A DNA stretch of 39,975 bases, from assembly GCA_002868945.1 (NCBI GenBank), contig PKTX01000037.1:1-39975 (forward strand), read 5' to 3'. The translations under genes and the position numbers were made by a program. The notes beneath the pieces were generated by a model. That model was not told the origin of the DNA. It saw nothing but the letters and a program-made list of their open reading frames with translations, and did no database searches. The DNA comes from Desulfobulbaceae bacterium (lineage in GTDB: Bacteria > Desulfobacterota > Desulfobulbia > Desulfobulbales > SURF-16). Positions 20,095 to 39,866 of this stretch are shown here, in pieces; positions within the stretch are counted from its first letter, which is position 1; each line of letters opens with the position of its first letter.

Positions 20095-20550
20095 TTAATG
20101 GGCAATTTTGTTCAGGGTTATTCTCTGCACCTCTTTGGCAAGTTCCAGCATTCCGGAGACCTCGGCCATGGTAGGAGGTGTAATGTTATAGCTGTCAATA
20201 TCGCAGATCTCCTGGTAGTCATCCAGGGCCTTGAGTTCTTCAGCCTGGGCTGTGAGTTCACCTGGTAAAAACTCCTCCATGGACTCCACCAGATCATGCA
20301 TGGTGTGGTTATAAGGCAGGTTGCCGCTTTTCATGAGCACGGCCATCAGCAGCTTTTCAATGGCCATGGCGATCAGGTTGTAGAGTATCTCCGGGGTGAA
20401 GGCCTGCTTGCGTTTGAGATAGGCCTTGCCGGCCGTGAGCAGAAACTGGTCACCGTGGGCGAGGAACTCCTGCCAGCCGTCAATGGGGCGGGTCTTGATG
20501 TCGCTGAATCCTACCAGTTTTACGGCTTGCGACTGTTGCGTTTCCAGCAT
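20095..20550 (-). CDS. HEPN-like domain protein in nif accessory operon
   Basis: The protein has 151 residues with gaaggagac upstream of the ATG. The predicted all-helical layout resembles HEPN proteins: a long helix 'FTPEILYNLIAMAIEKLLMA' followed by a Gly/Pro turn, 'HTMHDLVESMEEFLP', then helices with a late tyrosine-rich stretch. No canonical R-x4-H RNase motif is obvious, so ribonuclease activity is doubtful. It sits between Nif11 and GNAT genes in an operon with a sigma54 promoter. The function in nitrogen fixation is unknown. The HEPN assignment comes from pattern only. Confidence 0.55.
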   Translation of the reverse strand: MLETQQSQAVKLVGFSDIKTRPIDGWQEFLAHGDQFLLTAGKAYLKRKQAFTPEILYNLIAMAIEKLLMAVLMKSGNLPYNHTMHDLVESMEEFLPGELTAQAEELKALDDYQEICDIDSYNITPPTMAEVSGMLELAKEVQRITLNKIAH

Positions 20551-20570: not shown

Positions 20571-20610
20571 TTGTTGAAAAACGGAGCGAGAGGGCAGTAG
20601 TTTTTTAAAG
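20571..20610. repeat. Short gttgaaaaac / gtagttttttaa hairpin
   Basis: An inverted arrangement of gttgaaaaacggagcgag and ggcagtagttttttaa fills the gap between the GNAT and HEPN-like genes. It resembles the ends of the 237-bp element at 31395-31631 (gttgaaaaa and cagtagtttttcaac). Confidence 0.4.
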
Positions 20611-21060
20611 GCCTGGCCGCCGGCGCAGGCAGATAAGCTCTGTGGCCTGCCAGCCGAGTTTGGTATAAAATGCCAGGGCAGGGTCGTTGTTGCGGTCAGC
20701 CAGGAGCTGCAGCCGCCCGATATCTCGGCTCCGGGCCCAGCCTTCAAGGGCGTGCAGCAAGGCGCGGCCCACACCACGGCCCTGTTGTCCCTGCCGGACC
20801 ACCACGTCCTCCACCAGCAGGGCAGGCCCGCCTTCGGCGGTGGAGATGGTGAGCTGGCCTGTACACATACCGATGACCTGGCCGCTCTCCTCAGCCACCA
20901 GCACCACGCTCTGCTTACTGGCAAGCATCAGGGCCAGGCCGTGCCGGACGCGAGCCGTGTCAAAGACGAAGTCCTTCTCGATGCTAAAAAGAAGATGGAG
21001 CAGGCTCAGGAGGTCGTCGATATCCGTGATCCCGGCCGGGCGGATGCTGAGCGCAGCCAT
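20605..21060 (-). CDS. GNAT-family N-acetyltransferase
   Basis: The protein has 151 residues. The acetyl-CoA pyrophosphate loop is visible as 'VVVRQGQQGRGVGRALL' (Q-x-x-G-x-G/A), with the preceding beta-strand 'GGPALLVEDVVV' and C-terminal 'NNDPALAFYTKLGWQ', all typical of GNAT enzymes. The substrate is unknown. It begins 3 bp after the stop of the preceding small gene, within an operon controlled by a sigma54/NifA-type promoter, so a nitrogen-fixation-related acetylation is plausible (inference). Confidence 0.88.
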   Translation of the reverse strand: MAALSIRPAGITDIDDLLSLLHLLFSIEKDFVFDTARVRHGLALMLASKQSVVLVAEESGQVIGMCTGQLTISTAEGGPALLVEDVVVRQGQQGRGVGRALLHALEGWARSRDIGRLQLLADRNNDPALAFYTKLGWQATELICLRRRPGL

Positions 21061-21063
21061 TGT

Positions 21064-21369
21064 CTAACAGGCCTCGTCAAACTCGATACGGATGCTGTCA
21101 TCCTCCTCTTCATAGAGGCTATAAAAACTGCCCTGAACAAAACGCATATCGTGGCTGACAGCACTCTCTGCGAGCTGGCCGACATCGCGGCTTATCACCT
21201 CTTTATCCGCCTCTGCATTGAGATGGATCAACACCTCCTTGTCGTTGTCGGTGAACTGGAGCAAAAAGCCGTTATGATCGAGAAAGACCAGGTCCTCATG
21301 GGCAAACGAAACGGCCATGCCCGCCGTCTCGACGATTTCCTTGATCACTCCCAGGGGTTTGCTGCTCAT
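21064..21369 (-). CDS. Unknown small acidic protein of nif accessory operon
   Basis: The protein has 101 residues from the ATG at 21369, which has a strong ribosome site (aaggagaagag); a further in-frame ATG at 21384 lacks one. The sequence is acidic, alternates strands and helices ('DLVFLDHNGFLLQFTDNDKE') and ends 'IRIEFDEAC'. No cysteine pairs or known motifs are seen apart from the single penultimate-type cysteine at the very C-terminus. It lies between the ArsC-like and GNAT genes and is tightly packed. Function not recognised. Confidence 0.7.
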   Translation of the reverse strand: MSSKPLGVIKEIVETAGMAVSFAHEDLVFLDHNGFLLQFTDNDKEVLIHLNAEADKEVISRDVGQLAESAVSHDMRFVQGSFYSLYEEEDDSIRIEFDEAC

Positions 21370-21390
21370 CTCTTCTCCTTGCATCTCGTT

Positions 21391-21832: not shown

Positions 21833-22141
21833 CTATGAGGCGGCGATGAGGTAGTCCTCGGCCGGTTCACCGTCTTCCAGGCCGTCAAGAATGGCGTCGA
21901 TGGCCTCCTCACTGTCCACGCCCTTGAACCACCAGTTTTCCGGTTGAATCACCATGATTGGGCCGCTGTCGCACTGTTTGAGGCAGGTGGTGGCGGTGAT
22001 CAGGCAGTCGAGGCCACGGTCAAGGACCTCTTCTTCGATGTATTGTAAAAAACCGTCGGTCTGCTTGTGGCAGATGCCTTTTTTATCTCCTGCCACCCGA
22101 AAGCTTTGGCAGAGCAGTATTTGTCGTTCTGAAGTTGCCAT
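21833..22141 (-). CDS. Thioredoxin-like [2Fe-2S] ferredoxin, nif-associated
   Basis: The protein has 102 residues from the ATG at 22141, which has a strong aggagg site. Four cysteines are placed as in thioredoxin-fold [2Fe-2S] ferredoxins: C11, C24, C53 and C57 (TTCLKQCDSGP), with 'VIQPENWWFKGV' after them. The family includes the Clostridium pasteurianum 2Fe ferredoxin and Azotobacter FeSII, linked to nitrogenase electron supply or protection. It is the first gene of the minus-strand accessory operon, 37 bp downstream of a sigma54 promoter. Its role is electron transfer or protective binding to nitrogenase (inference from family). Confidence 0.9.
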   Translation of the reverse strand: MATSERQILLCQSFRVAGDKKGICHKQTDGFLQYIEEEVLDRGLDCLITATTCLKQCDSGPIMVIQPENWWFKGVDSEEAIDAILDGLEDGEPAEDYLIAAS

Positions 22142-22177: not shown

Positions 22178-22193
22178 AGCAATGGCTGTGCCA
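22178..22193 (-). promoter_or_regulatory. Sigma54 -24/-12 promoter of the ferredoxin operon
   Basis: Read on the minus strand it is TGGCACAGCCATTGCT, an exact match to the TGGCAC-N5-TTGC consensus. The expected start of transcription is about 22165, giving a short leader with the aggagg site of the ferredoxin gene. Confidence 0.88.
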
Positions 22194-22474: not shown

Positions 22475-23707
22475 ATGACACGGCATCCGTGGTCCCTACA
22501 ACCTATGCCCAGATCGCTTTCCACAAATATTTACTGCCTCTACCTGATTAAACTCGCCAAGTGGTTGATGCTGATCATGCCCATTGTTGCCCTGTTTTAT
22601 AGCGCCAATGGCCTGGATCATTTTGACATCTACCTCTTACAGGCCGTCTATTCACTGAGCGTGGCGCTGTTGGAGATCCCCTCAGGCTATATGGCTGATG
22701 TAATTGGCCGGAAAAAGTCCCTGGTGGTGGGCAGTGTACTCGGCACCCTGGGCTACGGGATCTACGCCATCTCCTCCGGATTTTACGGTTTCCTGGCAGC
22801 GGAAATGGTTTTGGGACTGGGCGGCAGTTTTATCTCAGGGTCCGACTCGGCCATGCTCTACGAGACTCTGGCAGCCATGGACAAAAAACATCGCTATTTT
22901 CGCCTTGAAGGAAGGATCACCTCCCTGGGCCATTTTGCCGAGACCATTGCCGCCCTGTGCGGTGGTTTTATCGCCGTTTCTCTAAGCTACCGGGCTGTTT
23001 ATGTCTCCCAGACCCTGGTGGCCGCTCTCGCCATCCCCGCCGCCCTCTATCTGCTGGAACCTCCACGGACCAGTCTTATTCACCGGCCTGGCCTGGGGCA
23101 TATTATCGCGGTGTGCAAGGAGAGTCTGCTGGGCAATAAAAAGTTGAGCTCCACCCTCCTGCTCTCCTCCCTGATCGGCACCTGCACCCTCTGCATGGCC
23201 TGGACCTCGCAAGTCTATTTTGTCAGCATGGGCCTTGACGAAAAATCGATCACGCCCCTCTGGATCCTGCTCAATCTGACCGTGGCCCTGGTGGCGGCCA
23301 TGGCCGACAAGGTGGTGGCGACAATCGGTCGCCGCGTGGCCCTCTCTATCATGATCCTCGTCATCCCTGGCGCCTATATCCTCCTTGGGGTTATGGCCCT
23401 GCTGCCGGCACTGCTTGTTCTTTTTGCCTTTTATGCCGTCCGCGGCTATGCTACGCCCTTGCTCAAAGATCTGGTCAACACATATTGCCCTTCCGAGACC
23501 CGGGCTACGGTGCTCTCCATCCGCAGTTTGCTCATCCGGGGCAGCTTTGCCCTCCTTGGCCCATTTATCGGCAGCCTCTCGGCTGGTTACAGCCTGGCAA
23601 TCGCCCTGCAGGTGAGCGGTGTCATCCTGGTGATCCTCGCCCTGCTTGCCGGCCTTTTCCTCTTTCTCGCCGTGGGGAAAGATATATCCCTTGCCGGGGA
23701 AGGCTAA
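22475..23707 (+). CDS. MFS transporter
   Basis: The protein has 410 residues; ATG 22505 is an alternative start giving 'MPRSLSTNIYCLYLIK'. Twelve hydrophobic segments are apparent. The first cytoplasmic loop carries the MFS signature 'GYMADVIGRKKSLVVG', and the mid-protein counterpart reads 'DKVVATIGRRVAL'. The substrate cannot be told. The gene is on the opposite strand from both nif operons around it and has no visible sigma54 promoter, so it may be unrelated to nitrogen fixation or serve export of a small compound. Confidence 0.85.
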   Translation: MTRHPWSLQPMPRSLSTNIYCLYLIKLAKWLMLIMPIVALFYSANGLDHFDIYLLQAVYSLSVALLEIPSGYMADVIGRKKSLVVGSVLGTLGYGIYAISSGFYGFLAAEMVLGLGGSFISGSDSAMLYETLAAMDKKHRYFRLEGRITSLGHFAETIAALCGGFIAVSLSYRAVYVSQTLVAALAIPAALYLLEPPRTSLIHRPGLGHIIAVCKESLLGNKKLSSTLLLSSLIGTCTLCMAWTSQVYFVSMGLDEKSITPLWILLNLTVALVAAMADKVVATIGRRVALSIMILVIPGAYILLGVMALLPALLVLFAFYAVRGYATPLLKDLVNTYCPSETRATVLSIRSLLIRGSFALLGPFIGSLSAGYSLAIALQVSGVILVILALLAGLFLFLAVGKDISLAGEG

Positions 23708-23801
23708 CTGCTGCCGGCATAAAGGGAGTTGGGGCAGGGGCATGTGGTTGAGCAGGGGGAGAGGACAGAACGCCGCAATTTTATTCAGAGAGGTAAAAGA
23801 G

Positions 23802-24122
23802 ATGGAAATTTGGTCGCAAAGCCCTCATGTTGAGAGCCACAACCGCATCATTGCCGGCCAGCCGCAATCAAGGACGCAGGTGGTGGAGGTGCCGTTTCGG
23901 CAAGAGGCTGCCCTTACGAGTGTGGACTATGGTGAGATCCTGATCACCATCATCAAAGGGGAAGGCTTTATTATGACGGCAGCAGAGAAGCTCCCTGTCC
24001 GCCAGGGTGACCAGATCTACCTGGCCCAGGGCGATGCGTTTGCCCTGCTGGCAGCCAGGGAGAATGAGCCTTTTATCGCGCAATCCTACTGGGCACCTCA
24101 TGTAATTGAGCAGCTCCTTTAA
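23802..24122 (+). CDS. Cupin-like small protein
   Basis: The protein has 106 residues from the ATG at 23802, after gaggtaaaagag; a longer frame to 23646 overlaps the MFS gene. A single beta-barrel-like pattern is seen with 'GEGFIMTAAEKLPVRQGDQIYLAQGDAFAL' (split: GEGFIM, then LPVRQGDQIYLAQGD), matching the second cupin motif (G-D-x-x-x-x-x-x-G). The metal-binding histidines of the first motif are not evident, so it may be a ligand-binding cupin rather than an enzyme. It lies 94 bp after the MFS gene, possibly in one transcript. Confidence 0.6.
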   Translation: MEIWSQSPHVESHNRIIAGQPQSRTQVVEVPFRQEAALTSVDYGEILITIIKGEGFIMTAAEKLPVRQGDQIYLAQGDAFALLAARENEPFIAQSYWAPHVIEQLL

Positions 24123-24231: not shown

Positions 24232-25368
24232 CTATTTTCGGCCTTTTTTACCCTTTTTACCGCCACCAAAGAGCACATCCACACTGCCCTCGACATTATC
24301 CTCGCTAAGCAGCAGGGGGAGCCCGTGCTCGCTGAGGATATGTCTGGGCCGTTGCCCGGCACTGGTGGCAAGCAGAACAAAACAGTCATCTAATAGTGCG
24401 GCCAGCTGGTGCCAGCGGCTGTCGCCACCACCCGGCTCCGGCAGGTCGCGGGCCTCAAGCAGGCAGGCCAGGCCGTCTTCTCGGGGGCCATAGATCAGGG
24501 CCTTGATGGCCTGGCCCAGATGCAGATCAATGTCCATGCCGTTTGCACTGAGCACCGCCACATTGGCTCGGTCTGCACTGGGCTTGGGCAGAGTCGCGGC
24601 AGTTTGCGCCGCGCTCTGACATCTCTCCGCGGCCTGGTGGGCCTCAACCAGCTCCAGGTGTTCTGCCACCTGCCCTGCCAGTACGGCCATGCTTGCCGCT
24701 GTTGGCAGGGGTAATTTCTCGCCACTGGCATCTAAGCCCTTGCCGGGCAGCAGGGCCATGGCCTCGGCGCCCAAATCGGCACAATGTTTGGCAATGGCTC
24801 CAATCTCGTGATCATTACAACCTGGATAGACCGCGGTGAGCACCGTCACCGGCACTCCTGCCTTTTGGCAGGCGGCCAGGGCAGCAGTCTGCTCACGGAG
24901 CAGGATCTCGGCGGCCCGGGCCAGGGGCATATTGCGTTTTGCCGGCCGTATCCAGCGGTAGAGTTTTTTAACAGTCTCTGCCTCCACGGCGTCCACCAAC
25001 AGGGTGATACGGCCTGCGCCATGCCGGGCCAGCTCTTCCACCTGGTCAGCCAAGCCAAGGCCCAGGGTCGTCAGTGCCAGAGGAAACTGCGGATACCTCT
25101 CTTGAAGCTGGCTGAGTATCTCCAGGGTCAGGGCCAGGGAGGCCAGAGGATCGCCTGGACCGTCAAGATTCAGGCCGGCAATGGCCTGGTCCTGCTCCAG
25201 GAGGTCTGCCAGCCAGTTAAGGGCGCCATAGAGCGGCACGGCCGCCGGCAGTTTGTCCTCCCCGGCAAAGATCAAGCGGGCGACGGCCTGGGGGGCCACC
25301 GGCAGGGTGAGCCACGTGGGGCCATTACAGCCACAGCCTTTTTGGTCGGGGAAGGGAATGATGGTCAT
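24232..25368 (-). CDS. NifB paralogue lacking the radical SAM cysteines, with C-terminal NifX-like domain
   Basis: The protein has 378 residues. It is collinear with the true NifB at 38083: LPVAP (22-26), then GPGDP, 'YPQFPLALTTLGLGL', 'KKLYRWIRPAKR', 'GCNDHEIGAIAKHCADLGAE' and a C-terminal domain matching the NifX/NafY-type half of NifB (VAVLSANGMDIDLHLGQ). At the cluster-binding site, where NifB has CNIKCNYC after LPVAPK, this protein has A28, L32 and A35, so all three cysteines are gone and it cannot bind the SAM cluster in the usual way. A CGC near the N-terminus (residues 12-14) is unrelated. The tail is GK-rich. The gene follows nifK on the same strand, behind a large palindrome. It may be a cofactor-binding or scaffold protein (inference). 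The reading frame is intact, so simple decay is unlikely. Confidence 0.85.
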   Translation of the reverse strand: MTIIPFPDQKGCGCNGPTWLTLPVAPQAVARLIFAGEDKLPAAVPLYGALNWLADLLEQDQAIAGLNLDGPGDPLASLALTLEILSQLQERYPQFPLALTTLGLGLADQVEELARHGAGRITLLVDAVEAETVKKLYRWIRPAKRNMPLARAAEILLREQTAALAACQKAGVPVTVLTAVYPGCNDHEIGAIAKHCADLGAEAMALLPGKGLDASGEKLPLPTAASMAVLAGQVAEHLELVEAHQAAERCQSAAQTAATLPKPSADRANVAVLSANGMDIDLHLGQAIKALIYGPREDGLACLLEARDLPEPGGGDSRWHQLAALLDDCFVLLATSAGQRPRHILSEHGLPLLLSEDNVEGSVDVLFGGGKKGKKGRK

Positions 25369-25462
25369 TGTTAATCCTTGTTTCTGGGCCCATCAGGAAT
25401 GCCCTTCGACAGGCTCAGGGCTGGATGGGAAAAAATGAATGAGAAATCTTTAAAAAATGAGG

Positions 25463-25595
25463 CCTCTGGCCCGTAGACAAGGAGTGGTAAAAAAGAAAAG
25501 GCGGAGCATAGAGGTCATATGTGCCCGCAGGGGGCATAAACTCGCATTTTTCTTTTTTGCCACGACGCCGTATACGGGCCAGAGGACCTTTTTTT
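25463..25595. terminator. Large three-tier palindrome, bidirectional terminator-like
   Basis: The outer stem is a perfect 13 bp (25463-25475 with 25573-25585). A second stem of 16 bp with one G-T pair follows (25484-25499 with 25548-25563). A small inner hairpin is TGCCC-gcag-GGGGCA near 25522. T-runs lie just outside both ends (ttttttt on +, tttttta on minus). It separates nifK from the NifB-like gene and could stop or attenuate nif transcription or protect the nifK 3' end. Confidence 0.7.
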
Positions 25596-25602
25596 ATGAT
25601 TT

Positions 25603-26976
25603 CTAGAGGACGAGCTCGAACTTCTCCTCCGGTGCATCACGGTCGAGTCGATCAAGCAGCACACCGAGGATCTTCTCCAGCAGTCTGAGGCCGCCCTTGT
25701 AGCCCACCGTCGGGAAATACTGGTGGCCCTGGCGGTCAAGGATGGGAAAGCCCCAGCGTACGTAGGGGACATCCTCGTCACGGGCGATGTACTTGCAGTA
25801 GCTGTTGCCGATAAGCACATCCACGGGCTCGTTCTTGATCCACTGGTGGAGGAGGAACATGTCGCCCTTGGCCTTGACATTGACCTCGAAACCGGCCTCC
25901 GCGGTGATCTCTCTGATCCGTTTTTCAAACTTCTTGCCCGGCGTACCGGTAACGATATGCACGGGTTTCATGTCCAGGGAGACGAGAAACTCGGTCATGG
26001 CGATGAGCTGATCCGGATCGCCCACCAGGGCAACCTTCTTGCCGTACAGGTACTGGTGCATGTCGGAGATCATGTCCACCAACTGGCCGCGCTCCTTGGC
26101 GATCTCGTCGGGAATGGTGACGCCGGCCAAGGTGCGCAGGGCATCGATGAAGCGGTCGGTGGCCGCCAGGCCAAAGGGCATGTCCAGCACCGAGCAGGGC
26201 ACCTTATGCTTGCTGTCCAGCTCACGGGCCGCATCGGCCGAACACCACTCGCCCAGGGCCAGGGTGCCGGTGGAATCGCCGGTGGATTTCAGCTCGGCCA
26301 TGGTGGTGCCACCCTCGGGAAACATGGTGTATTCCCCGGACAGCGGACCATTAAGAACACCGGAGGTGTCGGGGAAAAGGATGGTCTTGACCCCGATAAG
26401 GCCAGTGAGGCGTTTGATCTCCTCCATGTCGGCCGGCTCTACCCAGCCGGGAATGACGTTGATCTTGCCGTTTTTCTTGCCGGTGGGCTCGGCCATCATG
26501 GCCATGGACTTGACCATGCTGGCAAAGCCGGTGACGTGCGAGCCGGCATAGCTCGGTGTCGAGGCGCTGATCATATACTTGCCTTCCGGCAGTTTGCCCT
26601 CCTTTTCCGCCTTTTTCTTGATCTGGGGCAGATCATCGCCGATGGTTTCGGACAGGCAGGTGGTATGGACGGCAACAACCTCAGGGTTGTAGACGGTGAA
26701 TATATTGTTGATGGCCTGCAGCAGGTTGGCCTGGCCGCCGAACACCGAGGCCCCCTCGGTAAAGGAGCTGGTGCCGGCCGGGATCGGCTCTTTGTAGTGG
26801 CGGGTCAGGGTGCTGCGATGATAGGCGCAGCAGCCCTGGGAGCCATGGCTGTGGGGCAAACAGCCATGCACCCCCAGGGACGCATACATGGCGCCTATGG
26901 GCTGGCAAGTCTTGGCCGGGTTAATGGTCAAGGCCTTGCGCTCGCTGACTTCTTCGGGTGTATGTCTCAATAACAT
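25603..26976 (-). CDS. nifK: Nitrogenase MoFe protein beta subunit
   Basis: The protein has 457 residues, lacking the N-terminal extension of Azotobacter-type NifK, as usual in clostridial/sulfate-reducer types. The P-cluster ligands are present: C24 in AKTCQPIGA, C49 in GSQGCCAYHRS (an adjacent second cysteine, C50, replaces the usual valine or alanine), and C107 in TTCLSETIGDD. 'YFPTVGYKGG' near the end is typical. It pairs with NifD to form the alpha2-beta2 protein holding P-clusters and FeMo-co. It follows nifD after a 209-bp gap containing hairpins, one of them only about 20 nt before its ribosome site (agaggac). Confidence 0.97.
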   Translation of the reverse strand: MLLRHTPEEVSERKALTINPAKTCQPIGAMYASLGVHGCLPHSHGSQGCCAYHRSTLTRHYKEPIPAGTSSFTEGASVFGGQANLLQAINNIFTVYNPEVVAVHTTCLSETIGDDLPQIKKKAEKEGKLPEGKYMISASTPSYAGSHVTGFASMVKSMAMMAEPTGKKNGKINVIPGWVEPADMEEIKRLTGLIGVKTILFPDTSGVLNGPLSGEYTMFPEGGTTMAELKSTGDSTGTLALGEWCSADAARELDSKHKVPCSVLDMPFGLAATDRFIDALRTLAGVTIPDEIAKERGQLVDMISDMHQYLYGKKVALVGDPDQLIAMTEFLVSLDMKPVHIVTGTPGKKFEKRIREITAEAGFEVNVKAKGDMFLLHQWIKNEPVDVLIGNSYCKYIARDEDVPYVRWGFPILDRQGHQYFPTVGYKGGLRLLEKILGVLLDRLDRDAPEEKFELVL

Positions 26977-27185: not shown

Positions 27186-28826
27186 TTATTCCCAGTTATA
27201 GGATGCAGACAGCTGCGGGTTCTCCTGCCAGGGCGCCTTCATGTAGCCCCAGACCTTGGAGTTTACCAGCCGGTCAATCTCCTTATAGAAGTTGATGGCA
27301 CCCTTGAATCCGGCATAGGGTCCGCCGGAGTCATAGCTGTGCAGCTGCTTCATGGGCACACCCAGCTTCTGGATGGAATACTTCTCCTTGATGCCGGCAC
27401 AGAAGATGTCCGGTTTCATCAGTTCCACCAGTTTGTCGGCCTCGTACTGGTTGAGGTCGTCAATGATCAGGGTTCCCTTATCCATGTCCGGGGCCAGGCC
27501 GTCGTAATCCTTGAAGCGGTAGCCCTTCTTGGCCAGGGCGGCAAGCTCCTTGTCGCTCTTGCGCGGCTTGTAGCGTTTCTCGTCAGCCGTAACCTCCAGT
27601 TCCTCGATGTTACGGCTGTCGGCATCCAGTTTGATGTTGGGCAGCACCTGGCGGCCCTCGTAATCATCCTGGTGGGCGAACTCATAACCGGCCGAGATGG
27701 TCTTCATCTCCATCTCGGAGAAGAGGTCCTGGTAATGGTGGGCCCGGGAGCCGCCGACAAAGAGCATGGCTGTTTTGCCGGTGGTGCGCGGGGTGATGTC
27801 GGCAAGGGCTGCCTCCACCTCGGGCATCTCCTCGGCAATGACCTCCTCCACCTTGTCGATGAGCTCCTTCTCGCCGAAGTACTCGGCGATCTTGCGCAAC
27901 GATTTGGCAGTGGATTTGGCGCCGATGAAGTTCACCTTGATCCAGGGAATGCCGTATTTGGTCTCCATCATGTCAGCCACATAATTGATGGAACGATGGC
28001 ACATGACGGCGTTTAAGTCGGCGGTATGGCTGGAGGCGAACTGATCATAGGTCGAGTTACCGGAAAAGGTGGAAATGCAGGTAATGCCGCATTTCGCGAA
28101 AATCCGGTCGATCTCGAAGCCGTCGCCGCCGATGTTATACTCACCGAGCAGGTTGATCTTGTATTTGCCCGGTTTCTCTTCGTCGTTTTCGCCGACAATG
28201 TGCCGGAACACCTGGTTGTTGGCGATATGATGGCCGGCCGACTGGCTGACGCCTTTGTAGCCCTCGCAGGAGAAGGCGTAGACGTTACAGTCGCCCAGTT
28301 TCTCCTTCATGTTGGCCGTTACCGTGTGGATATCGTCACCGATCAGGCCCACCGGGCAGGTGGCAAAGACGGCAATGGACTTGGGATGAAAGAGGTCGTA
28401 GGCCTCCTGGATTGCCGCGGCCAGCTTCTTTTCGCCGCCGAAGATGATATCCTGCTCCTGCATGTCGGTGGAGAAGCAGTAGGGCATAAAGTTGTCACCG
28501 TCCGCGCCGGCATCGGTCTGGTTTCGCCTGGTGAGCCAGGAGTAAAAACCGCAGCCGATGGGGCCGTGGGTGATGTTGACGATGTCCCGAGTGGGACCCA
28601 GGATAACGCCCTTGCAGCCGGCGTAGGTACAGCCGCGCATGGTGATGATGCCGGGAATGGTCCGCACGTTGGCGGTAAGCGACGGCGTCTCATTCTGCTG
28701 GGCCTCGTTGATCATAATCTGCTTGGCGCGTCTGCGGGCCACCTTGGGTGGGTATTTTTCAAGGAGCTTGGCCTTGATATCCGCCGGCTCCCACTGCACT
28801 GATTTTTCCTTGGTTGCTGTTGCCAT
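27186..28826 (-). CDS. nifD: Nitrogenase MoFe protein alpha subunit
   Basis: The protein has 546 residues from the ATG at 28826 (gaggag upstream). A longer open frame to 29081 only reads through a repeat. P-cluster ligands: C71 (AGCKG), C92 (IGCGFYSW) and C157 (ATCPVGLIGDD). FeMo-co ligands: C276 (CHRSINY) and H496 (QLHSYDSGGPYAGF), with Q195 and H199 in GVSQSAGHH near the cofactor. An insertion at about residues 385-445, rich in K, D and E, makes it longer than Azotobacter NifD, as in other anaerobe-type sequences. It is the catalytic subunit for N2 reduction. It lies after nifI2 in a NifA-controlled operon. Confidence 0.97.
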   Translation of the reverse strand: MATATKEKSVQWEPADIKAKLLEKYPPKVARRRAKQIMINEAQQNETPSLTANVRTIPGIITMRGCTYAGCKGVILGPTRDIVNITHGPIGCGFYSWLTRRNQTDAGADGDNFMPYCFSTDMQEQDIIFGGEKKLAAAIQEAYDLFHPKSIAVFATCPVGLIGDDIHTVTANMKEKLGDCNVYAFSCEGYKGVSQSAGHHIANNQVFRHIVGENDEEKPGKYKINLLGEYNIGGDGFEIDRIFAKCGITCISTFSGNSTYDQFASSHTADLNAVMCHRSINYVADMMETKYGIPWIKVNFIGAKSTAKSLRKIAEYFGEKELIDKVEEVIAEEMPEVEAALADITPRTTGKTAMLFVGGSRAHHYQDLFSEMEMKTISAGYEFAHQDDYEGRQVLPNIKLDADSRNIEELEVTADEKRYKPRKSDKELAALAKKGYRFKDYDGLAPDMDKGTLIIDDLNQYEADKLVELMKPDIFCAGIKEKYSIQKLGVPMKQLHSYDSGGPYAGFKGAINFYKEIDRLVNSKVWGYMKAPWQENPQLSASYNWE

Positions 28827-28999
28827 TGTAACTTTTCTCCTCGTATGAGAGGGCCTCGCAAAGATTTGCGCAAAAGCGGTGTTCAGACCGCTCTCCTGTT
28901 GTTCTGCAGGGTCGGGGATCTCCCCGGGCCTGGGTGTCGTGCCCTTACCTACTGCCTTATTTGCGGGGCCGGACATTTTTTTGCACTGACCTACGGGCA

Positions 29000-29097
29000 T
29001 CTTGAATAGTGAGATATTCTCTTTTCGTAGCGCCGAAAAAATCGGCCAGGTAAGCGTGCCTACCAGACTCCGAAAGAGCACTTCTTCAAGATGGCCT
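29000..29097. repeat. 98-bp dispersed repeat upstream of nifD (copy A)
   Basis: It matches 29881-29980 in the same orientation over its whole length, by eye at about three quarters identity, sharing tcttga, gatatt, atcggc, aggtaagcg, agact and aagatggcct. The start of the window carries a rearranged copy. It ends at the nifI2 stop codon. Confidence 0.65.
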
Positions 29098-29471
29098 TAT
29101 GAGATGGAGGCCTTGCCCGTCTCACCGGTCCTGACGCGGACCGCGTCGCTCAGGGGCACGACAAAAACCTTGCCGTCGCCCGGCATGCCGGTCTGATTTG
29201 TATTGATGATGGTATCCACCACACAGCCCACCATGGCATCGTCCACCACAGCGGTGATCATGCGTTTGGGATAGAGTTTGCCCTTCTCACCAAGCAGGGT
29301 TGCAGCCTCTTCATAGCCCTTTTCCGCCCCCTCCAGAATCTCGGGGTTGACAAAACCCTTACCGCGACCATGGGCCTCATGGGCAAAGAAGGCGGCAATA
29401 CCGCAGTCGGTGAGGGCCTGCTTGGTCTGATTCATCATGTTAATGCGTACCACGGCGATCACCTCTTTCAT
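29097..29471 (-). CDS. nifI2: PII-like nitrogenase regulator NifI2
   Basis: The protein has 124 residues, longer than NifI1 as expected. It starts 'MKEVIAVVRINMMNQTKQAL' and contains 'HGRGKG', a long T-loop region and 'ITAVVDDAMVGCVVDTIINT' followed by 'GDGKVFVVPLSDAVRVRTGE', all PII-family features. With NifI1 it forms a complex that binds and inhibits the MoFe protein when ammonium is plentiful and is released by 2-oxoglutarate (known from methanogens). It overlaps nifI1 by 4 bp. Confidence 0.94.
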   Translation of the reverse strand: MKEVIAVVRINMMNQTKQALTDCGIAAFFAHEAHGRGKGFVNPEILEGAEKGYEEAATLLGEKGKLYPKRMITAVVDDAMVGCVVDTIINTNQTGMPGDGKVFVVPLSDAVRVRTGETGKASIS

Positions 29472-29824
29472 GCCGGCACCTCCTCGGCTGTGCCGCCGCT
29501 CTCCTTGACGCCGGAACTGATGGTATAGGATTCCTCCACCTCGGAGACAAAGATCTTGCCGTCGCCAAAGGCGCCTTTACCGACCGAACGGGCCGTATCC
29601 ATAATCGTTTCAATGACGAAATCCTTGTCTGCCGTCTTGACCACACTGAGCAGCATGACCTTGGGAATCTCGTCATAGGTGACTTCACCGATCTTGATAC
29701 CGCGCTGCTTACCGCGCCCGGCTACCGAGTATCGGGTAACGGCGGGAAAGCCGGCATCCATAAGGGCCGCCAGCACAGCGTCCGCCTTTTCAGGGCGGAT
29801 AATAGAACGAATCATTGTCAGCAT
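29468..29824 (-). CDS. nifI1: PII-like nitrogenase regulator NifI1
   Basis: The protein has 118 residues from the ATG at 29824, nine nt after ggag; an upstream ATG at 29839 is weaker, and a much longer frame reads through the repeat at 29881. 'MLTMIRSIIRPEKADAVLAA' and 'SVAGRGKQRGIKIGEVTYDEIP' (split: VAGRGKQRGI, EVTYDEIP) are diagnostic of NifI1, and 'VGKGAFGDGKIFVSEVEESYTI' resembles the PII C-loop. It acts with NifI2 in ammonium switch-off. It sits between nifH and nifI2. Confidence 0.94.
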   Translation of the reverse strand: MLTMIRSIIRPEKADAVLAALMDAGFPAVTRYSVAGRGKQRGIKIGEVTYDEIPKVMLLSVVKTADKDFVIETIMDTARSVGKGAFGDGKIFVSEVEESYTISSGVKESGGTAEEVPA

Positions 29825-29880
29825 TTTTCTTTTCTCCATATTTATCGACGAACTCTTTCGCCGGATTTCTCTAAAAGGTG

Positions 29881-29980
29881 TCTTGATTAATGCGATATTG
29901 TCTCTGCGTACCGCCGACAAAAAAATCGGCAGGTAAGCGAACCAGCCAGACTCTGCAAGAGCACTTCGCCAAGATGGCCT
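29881..29980. repeat. 100-bp dispersed repeat between nifH and nifI1 (copy B)
   Basis: This is the second copy of the repeat at 29000. Both copies sit in gaps of the same operon, before nifD and before nifI1, in the same orientation. With the hairpin at 30068 it makes up most of the 327-bp nifH-nifI1 gap. Confidence 0.65.
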
Positions 29981-30067
29981 GAAGGCGTTTTCCCCCGGGA
30001 TAGTGAAGGAAAGCGCGGCATGATTGAAAACGTCGCGGCCGCCGGCAGGGCCAGGAAGAGTTTGCCT

Positions 30068-30091
30068 AAAAAGCGCGCATACAAAGCGCGC
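30068..30091 (-). terminator. Terminator/attenuator hairpin after nifH
   Basis: On the minus strand, GCGCGC-tttgtat-GCGCGC is followed by ttttt, about 60 nt after the nifH stop. It could partly end transcription, giving more nifH than nifDK message. Confidence 0.65.
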
Positions 30092-30151
30092 GTTTTTCGA
30101 CAAACTCTGAGGCCGCAATGCCAAGCCCGGCAGATTTTTCAACATCCCGGC

Positions 30152-31147
<996 letters not shown>

Positions 31148-31162
31148 TCAAGGGCTGTGCCA
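31148..31162 (-). promoter_or_regulatory. Sigma54-like promoter of nifH operon (imperfect -12)
   Basis: On the minus strand the site reads TGGCACAGCCCTTGA. The -24 half is perfect and the spacing correct, but the -12 GC is GA. It is 166 bp before the nifH start. It shares TGGCACAGCC with the promoters at 22178 and 35233, which supports function despite the mismatch. Confidence 0.6.
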
Positions 31163-35232: not shown

Positions 35233-35248
35233 TGGCACAGCCGTTGCT
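35233..35248 (+). promoter_or_regulatory. Sigma54 -24/-12 promoter of nifENBX
   Basis: TGGCACAGCCGTTGCT is an exact TGGCAC-N5-TTGC match, differing by one base from the ferredoxin operon promoter at 22178. The expected start is about 35260, 45 nt before the nifE ATG. Confidence 0.9.
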
Positions 35249-35304: not shown

Positions 35305-36657
35305 ATGGAAGCTGCACTCAAGGAACGACAGGATCAGATACATCGCACCGGCGACAAGCCCTTTGCCCTGGTGTGCAACAAGGATTCCCTGGCCGGCGCC
35401 GTCAGCCAACGGGCCTGCGTCTTCTGCGGCTCGCGGGTGGTGCTCTATCCCATTGCCGATGCCCTGCATCTGGTGCACGGTCCCATCGGCTGTGCCGTCT
35501 ACACCTGGGATATCCGCGGCGCCCTCTCCTCAGGACCGGAGCTGCACCGCCTCTCCTTTTCCACCGACCTGCAGGAGCTCGATGTCATCTTCGGCGGCGA
35601 GCAGAAGCTAAGTCGCGCCCTCCTGGAACTGATCGAACGGCACAGCCCCAAGGCCGCCTTCGTCTACTCCACCTGCATTGTCGGCATCATCGGCGACGAC
35701 CTGGAGGCCGTCTGTAAGAAGGTGGCGGCCGAAACCGGTATTCCGGTAATCCCCGTGAAGTCGGAGGGGTTCAAGGGCAATAAGCGGGCCGGCTATACAG
35801 CGGCCTGCAATGCCATGGCCCGACTCATCGGCACCGGTGACACCACCGGCATCTCACCTCACTCCATCAATATCCTTGGCGACTTCAACCTGGCCGGCGA
35901 TATCTGGATGATCCGCGACTATTTCGCCCGCATGGGCGTGGAGGTGGTGGCCAATATCACCGGTGACGGCCGGGTGGCGGATATCAAACGGGCCCACGGC
36001 GCCGCCCTCAATGTCGTGCAATGCTCCGGCTCCACCATGGACCTGGCCCGACTCATGGAAGATGACTATGGCATCCCGGCCCTGCGCGTCTCCTATTTCG
36101 GTGTGGAAGACATGGCCCAGGCCCTCTACGACGTGGCAAACCATTTCAACGATCCTGATATTCTGCAGCGCACCCGGGAATTGGTCAGAGAGGAGCTTGA
36201 ACATCTCCTGCCCAAACTGGAGTTTTACAAGCAGGCCTTAACCGGCAAAAAGGCGGCCATCTACGTGGGCGGCTCCTTTAAGGCCTTTTCCCTGGTCAAG
36301 GCCTTCCGCCTGCTGGGCATGGATGTGGTGATGGTGGGCTCACAGACCGGCACCGAAGAGGAGTATCGGGAACTGGCGACAATCACCGATCCCGGCACCA
36401 TTATCGTTGACGACACCAACCCGCTGGAGCTCACCGGTTTCCTGGAGGAAACAAGGGTGGATATCTTTGTCGGCGGCGTCAAGGAACGGCCCATTGCCTA
36501 CAAGCTGGGCGTCGGCTTCTGCGACCATAACCATGAAAGAAAAGAGGCCCTGGCCGGCTTTGCCGGCATGCTGGGATTTGCCCAGGAGGTCTACGCCTCG
36601 GTGATGAGTCCTGTATGGCGTTTCACAGAGCACTATCAGTCAGGAGACAGAGCATGA
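35305..36657 (+). CDS. nifE: FeMo-cofactor scaffold subunit NifE
   Basis: The protein has 450 residues from the ATG at 35305 (aagaggcc upstream). A longer frame to 35038 crosses the promoter and is rejected. It is NifD-like: 'CVFCGSRVVLYPIADALHLVHGPIGCAVYTWD' (split: CVFCGSR, HGPIGCAVY) and 'STCIVGIIGDD' hold the conserved cysteines, and 'VVQCSGSTMDLARLMEDDYG' corresponds to the FeMo-co cysteine region. The histidine that anchors FeMo-co in NifD is replaced in the 'KLGVGFCDHNHERK' region, as expected for a scaffold that hands the cofactor on. With NifN it matures the NifB cofactor to FeMo-co. The stop overlaps nifN by 4 bp. Confidence 0.96.
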   Translation: MEAALKERQDQIHRTGDKPFALVCNKDSLAGAVSQRACVFCGSRVVLYPIADALHLVHGPIGCAVYTWDIRGALSSGPELHRLSFSTDLQELDVIFGGEQKLSRALLELIERHSPKAAFVYSTCIVGIIGDDLEAVCKKVAAETGIPVIPVKSEGFKGNKRAGYTAACNAMARLIGTGDTTGISPHSINILGDFNLAGDIWMIRDYFARMGVEVVANITGDGRVADIKRAHGAALNVVQCSGSTMDLARLMEDDYGIPALRVSYFGVEDMAQALYDVANHFNDPDILQRTRELVREELEHLLPKLEFYKQALTGKKAAIYVGGSFKAFSLVKAFRLLGMDVVMVGSQTGTEEEYRELATITDPGTIIVDDTNPLELTGFLEETRVDIFVGGVKERPIAYKLGVGFCDHNHERKEALAGFAGMLGFAQEVYASVMSPVWRFTEHYQSGDRA

Positions 36658-38012
36658 CAAAAAATCCCAAGCCCAACTATATATCCACCACCAACGCCTG
36701 CAAACTGTGTACGCCCCTGGGCGCGGCCCTGGCCTTCAAGGGCATTGAGGGTGCGGTGCCCTATCTGCACGGTTCCCAGGGCTGCGCCACCTATATGCGC
36801 CGTTATATCATCAGCCATTTCAATGAGCCCATTGATATTGCCTCCTCATCACTCTCCGAAAAACACGCGGTCTACGGCGGCGGTCCCAACCTCAAACTGG
36901 GGCTCTTGAATGTCACCAAAAAATACCGGCCCAAGCTGATCGGCATTGCCACGACATGCCTTACCGAAACCATCGGTGACGATGTTCGTCTCTTTCTCCA
37001 GGAGTACGAGCGTGAGGTCAAGGGTGACAAGCCGCTCATGGTACGGGTGGCCACCCCAAGTTATAGCGGCACCCACATGGAGGGCTTTCACGGTGCCGTT
37101 GCCGCCGTGGTGGACAGCCTGGCCGCGGCCCTGGAAACCAAGACCTCGACAGTCAACATCCTGCCAGGTTTCGTATCGCCGGCCGACATCCGCTATCTCA
37201 AGGAGGTGGTCAGCGACTTCGGCCTCAGCGCCACCATTCTGCCGGACATCTCCGAGACCATGGACGGCCCGGCCGCCAAAAAATACGAAAAGATCCAGGC
37301 CGGCGGCACCAGCATTAACGAGATCGGCAACATGGGCGCCAACCTGGCCACCCTGGAGTTCGGCCACACCATGCCGGTGGAGAGTGGCGGCGCCATTCTC
37401 CAGCAGCGCTTCCAGGTCGAAAACAGGCGCCTGCCGCTGCCCATGGGCATTACGGCCAGCGACCGACTCTTTGCCATTCTGACCCGGATCAGCGGCCGGG
37501 AAATTCCCGACAAACACGGCAAGGAACGGGGCCGCCTGGTGGACAGCTACGTGGATGGCCACAAGTACCTGTCGGGCAAGCGGGCCATTGTCTATGGCGA
37601 GGAGGACCTGGTGGTGGGGCTCACCGCCTTTCTGGCCGAAATCGGCATTATACCGGTGCTCTGCGCCTCGGGCGGCAAAAGCGGCAGACTGGCGGCGGAG
37701 ATCGCCGCTGCCACGGCTGACCTCATACCAGAGCAGCCCCAGGTCTTTGAGGGCATGGACTTCTTTGACATCAGTGAGATGGCTGCGGACCTGACCCCGG
37801 ATCTCCTGGTGGGTCATTCCAAGGGCTATTCCCTGGCCCGCAAACTCGACATTCCCCTGATTCGGGTGGGTTTTCCCATCCATGACCGCATGGGCGGCCA
37901 ACGCATCCAGCATCTTGGTTACCGTGGCGCCCAACACCTCTTTGACCAGGTGGTCAATGCCATGATCGCCAGGAAGCAGGCCGATTCGCCCGTGGGCTAC
38001 GCCTATATGTAA
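36654..38012 (+). CDS. nifN: FeMo-cofactor scaffold subunit NifN
   Basis: The protein has 452 residues from the ATG at 36654, which overlaps the nifE stop (ATGA) and has aggaga upstream. It is NifK-like, with 'NACKLCTPLGAALAFKGIEG', 'LHGSQGCATYMRRY' and 'TTCLTETIGDD' near the N-terminus, and 'LIRVGFPIHDRMGGQRIQHL' near the C-terminus. It forms the NifEN complex that receives NifB-co and inserts molybdenum and homocitrate. It is followed by a heptamer repeat and then nifB. Confidence 0.96.
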   Translation: MTKNPKPNYISTTNACKLCTPLGAALAFKGIEGAVPYLHGSQGCATYMRRYIISHFNEPIDIASSSLSEKHAVYGGGPNLKLGLLNVTKKYRPKLIGIATTCLTETIGDDVRLFLQEYEREVKGDKPLMVRVATPSYSGTHMEGFHGAVAAVVDSLAAALETKTSTVNILPGFVSPADIRYLKEVVSDFGLSATILPDISETMDGPAAKKYEKIQAGGTSINEIGNMGANLATLEFGHTMPVESGGAILQQRFQVENRRLPLPMGITASDRLFAILTRISGREIPDKHGKERGRLVDSYVDGHKYLSGKRAIVYGEEDLVVGLTAFLAEIGIIPVLCASGGKSGRLAAEIAAATADLIPEQPQVFEGMDFFDISEMAADLTPDLLVGHSKGYSLARKLDIPLIRVGFPIHDRMGGQRIQHLGYRGAQHLFDQVVNAMIARKQADSPVGYAYM

Positions 38013-38016
38013 AACA

Positions 38017-38055
38017 GAATTCAGAATTCAGAATTCAGAATTCAGGATTCAGGAT
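38017..38055. repeat. ttcagaa heptamer tandem repeat between nifN and nifB
   Basis: About five to six tandem copies of a seven-base unit (ttcagaa, drifting to ttcagga at the right end). It is located in the 70-bp spacer. Such runs are prone to slippage and occur as spacers in other genomes. No function is evident. Confidence 0.75.
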
Positions 38056-38082
38056 TTTAAGAATAACAATAATGGAGCAGCC

Positions 38083-39372
38083 ATGAAAACAATACCAGCC
38101 ATCACAGCCCCGGACCTCAGCCGTCACCCCTGCTTTAATGCCGAGGTCAAAGGCAAGTTCGGTCGAGTCCACCTGCCGGTGGCACCCAAGTGCAATATCA
38201 AGTGCAACTATTGCAACCGCAAGTATGACTGCGTCAACGAATCGCGCCCCGGTGTGACCTCCACCATACTGTCACCGCGCCAGGCCCTGCTTTACATGGA
38301 AAAGGTGCTGGTGGCCGAACCACGTATCAGCGTGGCCGGCATTGCCGGGCCCGGTGATCCCTTTGCCAATGCCGCAGAGACCCTGGAGACCATGCAGCTC
38401 CTGCGCCGGGCCTATCCGCAGCTCATCCTCTGCCTCTCCAGTAACGGCCTGGGGCTGCCTCCCCATGTGGACGAGGTGGCGGACATCGGCGTCTCCCATG
38501 TGACCATAACGATAAACGGTATTGACCCGCATATCACCCGCAAGATCTACACCTTTGTACGCGACGGCAATATCGTCTACCGGGACATCCAGGCCGCCGA
38601 ATTGCTGCTGGCCCGCCAGCTGACTGCCATCGAAAGATTGAAGCGTCGTGGCGTCACCGTCAAGGTCAACTTCATCACTATTCCCGGGATCAACGATCAT
38701 CATGCCGAGGATACGGCCAAGACCATGGCCAAGATGGGCGTTGATCTTTTCAACTGCATGGCCATGCTGCCCAATGCCGACACGCCCTTTGCAGAGTGCG
38801 GCGAACCGGACAAGGCCAGCATGAATACGCTGCGCAATCGCTGTGAAAAACATCTGCCGCAGATGCGCCATTGCAAAAGATGCCGGGCCGATGCCGTGGG
38901 CCTGCTCGGCAAGGACCGCTCCGGTGCCATGGCCGGTTGCCTCAAGGCCTGCGCCGCCATGCCGGTTGCCGCCAAACAACCACGGCCCTATGTGGCGGTG
39001 GCCAGCCTGGAGGGTATGCTGGTCAACCAGCACCTGGGGGAGACCACCACGTTTCTCATCTATGGCCGGGAGGGTGACGACTACAAACTGGTGGAGGAAC
39101 GCTCGGCCCCCATGCCGGGCGGCGGCATGGGGCGCTGGCAGGCCCTGACCAGGCTGCTTTTTGACTGCCGGGCCGTCCTGGTCAGCGAAATGGGTGACTC
39201 GCCCCGCCGCATCTTCCAGGATGCCGGCATCAAACCGGTGACCATGTCCGGCTTTATCGAGGCGGGCCTCAAGGCCATCTACACCGCCGAAGGGCTGCAC
39301 ACCTTGAAGAGAAGAGCCAAGAAATCGTGTTCAGGGGATAGTTGCAAGGGAACCGGAACCGGCTGTGGTTAA
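38083..39372 (+). CDS. nifB: FeMo-cofactor biosynthesis radical SAM protein NifB, with NifX-like domain
   Basis: The protein has 429 residues from the ATG at 38083 (atggagcag upstream). Radical SAM motif C37, C41 and C44 (CNIKCNYC) sits within 'HLPVAPKCNIKCNYCNRKYD' (residues 30-49). Further NifB cysteines and 'ESRPGVTS' are intact, as is GPGDP. 'CKRCRADAVGLLGKD' follows. The C-terminal part from about residue 300 ('YVAVASLEGMLVNQHLGE') is a NifX/NafY-type cofactor-binding domain. It builds the 8Fe carbide-containing NifB-co. The tail is cysteine-containing (CSGDSCKGTGTGCG). It is the catalytically competent partner of the cysteine-less paralogue at 24232. Confidence 0.97.
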   Translation: MKTIPAITAPDLSRHPCFNAEVKGKFGRVHLPVAPKCNIKCNYCNRKYDCVNESRPGVTSTILSPRQALLYMEKVLVAEPRISVAGIAGPGDPFANAAETLETMQLLRRAYPQLILCLSSNGLGLPPHVDEVADIGVSHVTITINGIDPHITRKIYTFVRDGNIVYRDIQAAELLLARQLTAIERLKRRGVTVKVNFITIPGINDHHAEDTAKTMAKMGVDLFNCMAMLPNADTPFAECGEPDKASMNTLRNRCEKHLPQMRHCKRCRADAVGLLGKDRSGAMAGCLKACAAMPVAAKQPRPYVAVASLEGMLVNQHLGETTTFLIYGREGDDYKLVEERSAPMPGGGMGRWQALTRLLFDCRAVLVSEMGDSPRRIFQDAGIKPVTMSGFIEAGLKAIYTAEGLHTLKRRAKKSCSGDSCKGTGTGCG

Positions 39373-39519
39373 AAAAGTCTTGTTACTTTGCGGCCGCTTT
39401 ACTGGCTGCTTGCCCCAAAAACGTGAAAAGGGCCTGCCGGAAGAAGGGCAGCGCTCAGGCATGCTGAAACGCCTATCCCTTACCAGGCTCTGCATGGCAA
39501 AGAGACTACATGACAAGCC

Positions 39520-39536
39520 CTCTCCCTGCCGGAGAG
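39520..39536 (+). promoter_or_regulatory. Hairpin in the nifX leader
   Basis: A perfect six-bp stem, CTCTCC-ctgcc-GGAGAG, ends about 6 nt before the aaaggagag ribosome binding site of the nifX-like gene. It may influence translation or message stability. Confidence 0.35.
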
Positions 39537-39554
39537 GAGTGAAAGGAGAGAAAA

Positions 39555-39866
39555 ATGAAAATCGCCTGCGCATCAACCAACGGCATAAACGTGGACGAGC
39601 ATTTCGGCACGGCCTCGGCATTTTATATCTTTGACCTGGCTGACGGTGTCTTGACCCCACTGGACAAGGTACTGGTGGAGCCATACTCTGACGGCGACCA
39701 AAAGGATCACCCCTTTACCCCCACCGCCTTTGAGAGAGTGAGCACCGCCCTTGCCGGCTGCGAGCGGGTCTATGTCCGGAAGATTGGTGACAAACCGGCC
39801 GCGGAGCTGCGCAAAATCGGTATTGAGCCCATTATCCATGAGGGGGCCATCGACGCCATCGGCTAG
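39555..39866 (+). CDS. nifX: NifX-like dinitrogenase iron-molybdenum cofactor biosynthesis protein
   Basis: The protein has 103 residues with aaaggagag before the ATG. It is one domain of the NifX/NafY/NifB-C-terminal family: 'MKIACASTNGINVDEHFGTA' at the start, 'AFYIFDLADG', 'VYVRKIGDKPAAELRKIGIEPI' in the middle and an 'EGAIDAI' end. The conserved 'DEHFG' histidine suits cofactor binding. It holds NifB-co or a FeMo-co precursor during assembly. It is the last gene of nifENBX, 182 bp after nifB. The exact symbol is less sure than the family. Confidence 0.88.
   Translation: MKIACASTNGINVDEHFGTASAFYIFDLADGVLTPLDKVLVEPYSDGDQKDHPFTPTAFERVSTALAGCERVYVRKIGDKPAAELRKIGIEPIIHEGAIDAIG

Follow-up and report, generated by a model that had tools for sequence, protein, structure and literature searches.

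What does a NifB-like protein do directly after nifK when the cysteines of a radical SAM enzyme are missing from it? The question is raised by a 378-residue protein (P0001; working name psB) encoded in the window, by which we mean the whole stretch of 39,975 nucleotides analysed here. We propose that psB is a NifB-derived pseudo-enzyme that works like NifY/NafY, escorting the cofactor to NifDK or inserting it there, and we put the probability of this reading at roughly one half. Searches of the open-access literature returned no published description of psB, in agreement with the preliminary description of this DNA, which knew of no described role for such a protein. The genes that matter to the argument are these:

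24232-25368, minus strand: psB, a non-catalytic NifB paralogue
25369-25605, minus strand: gap between nifK and psB, with a hairpin element (25440-25605) and an AAGGA ribosome-binding site ahead of the psB ATG
25603-26976, minus strand: nifK, the constant upstream neighbour of psB across the family
27186-30982, minus strand: nifH (30152-30982), nifI1, nifI2 and nifD, in the same operon upstream of psB
21833-22141, minus strand: a 2Fe-2S ferredoxin gene (fdx), directly 3' of psB in nearly all relatives
35305-39866, plus strand: nifE, nifN, catalytic nifB and nifX, a cofactor-synthesis operon with which psB would cooperate
39555-39866, plus strand: nifX, separate from psB in the same window

The psB reading frame is exact, begins with ATG and is open on the minus strand, with stops on the plus strand. 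The open frame and its place after nifK are as the preliminary description had them, and the strand, which it left unstated, is minus. The catalytic NifB of the window (38083-39372, plus strand) carries LPVAPKCNIKCNYC and scores 387 bits against the TIGR01290 cut-off of 343.65, the genome having no other full-scoring NifB. Against the same model psB reaches 89.2 bits, below the cut-off, and Pfam and NCBIfam yield weak Radical_SAM, Nitro_FeMo-Co and nifB traces, all below their cut-offs. The 234 bp between nifK and psB contain a 166-nt near-perfect inverted repeat on the minus strand (-69.6 kcal/mol, z -8.8). This hairpin is a MITE-like element with one other copy in the genome, partial and diverged (C7:103-225, 72%).

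Several other genes lie nearby. A gene pair for an MFS transporter and a cupin-like protein (22475-24122, plus strand) is inserted between psB and fdx on the opposite strand. Three minus-strand genes are frequent in the nif operons of relatives: one encodes a GNAT acetyltransferase (20605-21060), and the products of the other two (21064-21384 and 20095-20550) match no family. A gene for a nitrogenase-associated ArsC-like protein (TIGR01616; 21391-21816, minus strand) occurs in the nif operons of only some relatives. A Nif11-domain peptide of 73 residues (PF07862; 19847-20068, minus strand) is encoded close to the nif operon, and a similar peptide lies between nifK and fdx in another genome (G240, L075).

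What psB has lost and what it retains was read from an alignment of 50 psB proteins with 15 NifB proteins, in which the following parts of psB matter:

25261-25305, minus strand: residues 22-36 (LPVAPQAVARLIFAG), the site of the lost CxxxCxxC (A28, L32, A35)
24643-25317, minus strand: residues 18-242, a radical SAM/NifB-type barrel without cluster ligands, AlphaFold2 pLDDT mostly above 85
24259-24582, minus strand: residues 263-370, a NifX/NafY-core-like domain, the most constrained part
24520-24522, minus strand: codon of H283 (in DIDLHLG), the equivalent of NifX H35 and of NafY H121 in its HFG motif

The alignment bears out the replacement of the three radical SAM cysteines by A28, L32 and A35, and the match to the window's NifB in LPVAP (residues 22-26), GPGDP (residues 70-74) and the NifX-like C-terminal half. 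CxxxCxxC, which binds the SAM cluster in the radical SAM superfamily, is absent from psB and from all 50 members: 35 lack every one of the three cysteines, and the other 15 retain just the third. The preliminary description was right about this loss and missed its breadth. In Methanosarcina NifB the ligands are Cys50, Cys54 and Cys57 for the SAM cluster, Cys30, Cys63, Cys129 and His43 for K1, and Cys264, Cys274 and Cys277 for K2 (PMC7145814). All 50 members have a gap at Cys63, its loop being deleted, and nearly all also have a deletion of the ExRP motif behind it. No member retains more than three of the nine alignable ligand positions, Cys264 being left uncounted. HPC, TxTxN and Cx2CRxDAxG are gone from the window's psB; 35/50 members have a cysteine aligned close to the HPC position, in an N-terminal stretch that aligns uncertainly. 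From the six fingerprints of catalytic NifB (HPC, Cx3Cx2C, ExRP, AGPG, TxTxN and Cx2CRxDAxG; PMC5715403), psB keeps GPG only, which is invariant in the psB alignment. Little is lost from the NifX half, where all 50 members have H283 and C329. One member from another family of the phylum (L020) has HPC and the His43 equivalent, with S, R and G in place of the three cysteines; judged by these residues, it looks like an intermediate form.

The folds tell the same two parts apart. The AlphaFold2 model of psB has a mean pLDDT of 82.8, and its barrel superimposes on NifB 7jma with Z 27.7 (1.9 Å over 214 residues), whereas other radical SAM proteins reach at most Z 18.6. A separate prediction of the NifX half (pLDDT 73.6) resembles TM1816, the NafY core (1p90, Z 9.7) and the NifX of the NifEN-NifX complex at Z 8.8-10.1; family members take ranks 1-9 (Z 8.0-10.1), against at most 6.5 for unrelated folds. 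Its top Foldseek match is NifX in the NifEN-NifX complex (9ian), and as a single sequence it falls just under the Pfam cut-off (25.4 against 26.3). Among solved structures, the psB family profile picks out NifB (E 6e-41) and, more weakly, the NafY core (4.5e-5), and on the former match chance resemblance was rejected. H283 aligns with the ligand histidine of NafY 1p90.

In a tree, psB proteins form a single clade (SH-aLRT 100) on a long stem, nested within the NifB of their own phylum and apart from the NifB of Pantoea and Rhizobium; given a quick tree search and long branches, the exact sister group is unsure. Repeated independent loss of the cysteines was rejected on this single clade. Nei-Gojobori estimates from 86 psB pairs (dS 0.1-0.8) give the same median dN/dS, 0.23, for the whole protein and for the barrel; the linker stands at 0.40 and the NifX half lowest, at 0.13. 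Over 15 close pairs the ratio is 0.21 for psB against about 0.08 for nifK, the latter only a rough yardstick because nifK frames were taken stop to stop. None of the aligned members has a frameshift.

To find relatives, we surveyed 395 genomes of the phylum and scanned GTDB contigs. The family is mostly from Desulfobulbales, with a few members from other families (f18, f43 and f80). Within the order, psB occurs in 142/258 genomes and full-length nifD in 149, with both in 133 (odds ratio 92, p 1e-42, uncorrected for kinship); of the nine genomes with psB but no full-length nifD call, most show nifD-family matches that are partial or weaker. At all family loci with flanks psB is 3' of nifK, and wherever the downstream flank is present a 2Fe-2S ferredoxin gene comes next, barring local insertions, of which the window is an example. 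The preliminary description took psB for a retained, non-catalytic protein rather than a dying gene, and the survey agrees: an orthologous clade in Desulfobulbales and three other families, beside nifK and with dN/dS about 0.2, well below 1. Of the checks it had proposed, a search for homologues without CxxxCxxC beside nifK, a measure of purifying selection and a structural comparison with NifB agree with such retention, and the three outcomes it had named against itself (no orthologues, relaxed selection, an assembly error) were each looked for and not found. An assembly error was rejected because full-scoring orthologues exist in same-genus genomes (G604-G606) and all 50 aligned members lack the motif.

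The exceptions are informative. Five inspected genomes of the order have nifDK and fdx without psB (G195, G240, G474, G602 and G625), so psB is dispensable somewhere. In G240 a C-terminal psB remnant (...EGTVDLLYGGGKKGKCRK) stands ahead of fdx, and the loss there is therefore secondary. One draft genome (G577, L079:8685-9119) has, between nifK and fdx, a psB whose barrel is deleted in frame; what remains is the start peptide and a NifX half that has the HLG histidine. In G297 (L082:3482-5503) psB overlaps nifK within a 674-residue open frame, and its start is ambiguous. On two Nitratidesulfovibrio vulgaris plasmids nifK is followed by a ferredoxin gene, with no psB; the plasmid matches listed outside Desulfovibrionaceae are mostly annotated nifB.

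Expression with the nitrogenase genes is suggested by the following site:

31147-31162, minus strand: sigma-54-like -24/-12 site TGGCACAGCCCTTGAA, one mismatch, upstream of nifH

This site presumably drives nifHI1I2DK-psB. Exact sites of the form TGGCACAGCC(A/G)TTGCT lie upstream of fdx (22178-22193, minus strand) and of nifE (35233-35248, plus strand). As the scan overall showed no enrichment over shuffles, the argument is one of site position. The scan found no match between nifK and psB, so co-transcription of psB with nifK is likely.

How, then, might psB act? NifX passes NifB-co to NifEN, with H35 as ligand (PMC13128457), and NafY uses H121 of its HFG motif to bind FeMo-co and another, N-terminal domain to bind apo-NifDK (PMC8496260). 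MoFe protein that lacks FeMo-co co-purifies with NifY and NafY, which shield its cofactor ligand Cys275 (PMC6016461). By analogy, psB would be co-expressed with NifHDK and would hold finished FeMo-co, or its precursor NifB-co, on the NifX-like domain via H283; the dead barrel would dock on the apo-NifDK tetramer and protect the empty site, and psB would then hand the cofactor into NifDK. We infer the binding, the partner and the insertion from the adjacency to nifK, the presence of psB in 133 of the 149 nifD genomes, the strongest constraint and the NifX/NafY-like fold of the NifX half, H283 kept while ligands of the MaNifB type were lost, and the matching slot in the Pantoea nif operon. The G577 protein, which keeps the NifX half between nifK and fdx, also counts for the escort role, and its missing barrel counts against, in that the barrel may not be an essential part. 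H283 and the NifX fold were inherited from the C-terminal domain of NifB, so their presence alone is insufficient evidence of a new role; nor does gene adjacency prove a physical interaction. NifB has been modelled docking into the valley of NifEN (PMC13031127), and since NifDK is homologous to NifEN, an inherited docking surface on psB is plausible. We tentatively suggest that the cluster-stripped barrel is the NifDK docking module, and psB an independently evolved insertase that fills the role of NifY/NafY through a surface derived from NifB-NifEN docking.

The main rival is that psB is a NifX-type carrier of NifB-co from NifB to NifEN rather than a factor for NifDK. It owes this standing to the rarity of orthologues of the window's NifX, present in only 34/258 genomes of the order, which often leaves psB the sole NifX-type protein of the nif cluster besides NifB. 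The ligand histidine shared with NifX and the top Foldseek match, to NifEN-bound NifX, fit such a carrier. However, it is nifK that psB tracks, rather than nifEN or nifB, psB and nifX occur together in the window's organism, and NifX is not clearly commoner where psB is missing (4/16 genomes without psB, about 27/142 with it); we therefore consider this carrier unlikely. A strict replacement of NifX by psB was rejected, there being no clear complementarity across the genomes of the order. It is improbable, too, that psB binds no cofactor and serves NifDK as a structural prop or at the P-cluster stage. Adjacency to nifK in all loci and constraint on the barrel (dN/dS 0.23) would suit such a role, but it does not account for H283 being invariant or for the NifX half being under stronger constraint, and G577 kept only the NifX half.

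The preliminary description had suggested a cofactor carrier, an insertase-like chaperone or a regulator of NifB. With a NifX half under strong constraint and an invariant H283, psB is more readily seen as a carrier or insertion chaperone than as a NifB regulator, as far as such conservation can indicate a role. Dead paralogues that control a live enzyme are described for other systems (PMC5201418), and psB retains the NifB fold. A non-catalytic partner that activates or inhibits NifB is nevertheless very unlikely: MaNifB is monomeric, at about 38 kDa (PMC7145814), the most constrained half of psB is the one dispensable for NifB catalysis (PMC5715403), and the psB gene does not adjoin nifB. 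That psB is a decaying duplicate without function is scarcely credible despite the lost catalytic ligands, its disappearance from some lineages and the remnant in G240, given dN/dS about 0.2 over 86 pairs, on which pseudogene status was rejected as already contradicted by the selection data, a single origin, a spread over at least four families and intact frames in the aligned members.

Most nitrogen-fixing members of the order, then, keep a dead NifB after a nitrogenase gene, probably to carry or insert the finished cofactor. If psB is indeed an escort for NifDK, it would offer a route by which nitrogenases without NifY/NafY may obtain cofactor, a natural separation of the NifB scaffold from catalysis, and an extra accessory protein for engineered nif clusters. 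Counts of nifB-like genes would in any case overcount catalytic NifB in these bacteria. A motif filter has removed 28% of NifB-annotated sequences, most of them lacking Cx3Cx2C and taken for NifX (PMC5715403).

Among known systems, psB shares with NifB (TIGR01290) common descent, the fold of both domains, GPGD, an LPVAP-type strand and a C-terminal NifX-like domain with HLG. It differs from NifB in having no radical SAM site, in the loss of ExRP, TxTxN, Cx2CRxDAxG and most of the K1 and K2 ligand positions that were aligned, in its score (89 bits against 344) and in its place after nifK. It resembles NifX in the fold and ligand histidine (H35 in NifX) of its C-terminal half, but NifX has no barrel and consists of one small domain. 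A search with PF16844, the NafY N-domain, gave no match, but likewise none on a Pantoea plasmid that carries a NifY-position protein, so that this blank is no evidence for the absence of NafY. The nif operon of Pantoea, a gammaproteobacterium and our yardstick for gene position, has a NifY-type protein with a C-terminal Nitro_FeMo-Co domain in the slot that matches psB (nifH-D-K-T-[here]-E-N-X), and psB is like nifY in standing after nifDK. Like NifY and NafY, psB has a C-terminal domain with the cofactor-binding fold and the ligand histidine; unlike NafY, whose N-terminal part is a small domain that binds apo-NifDK, it carries in front of this domain a NifB-type barrel of different origin.
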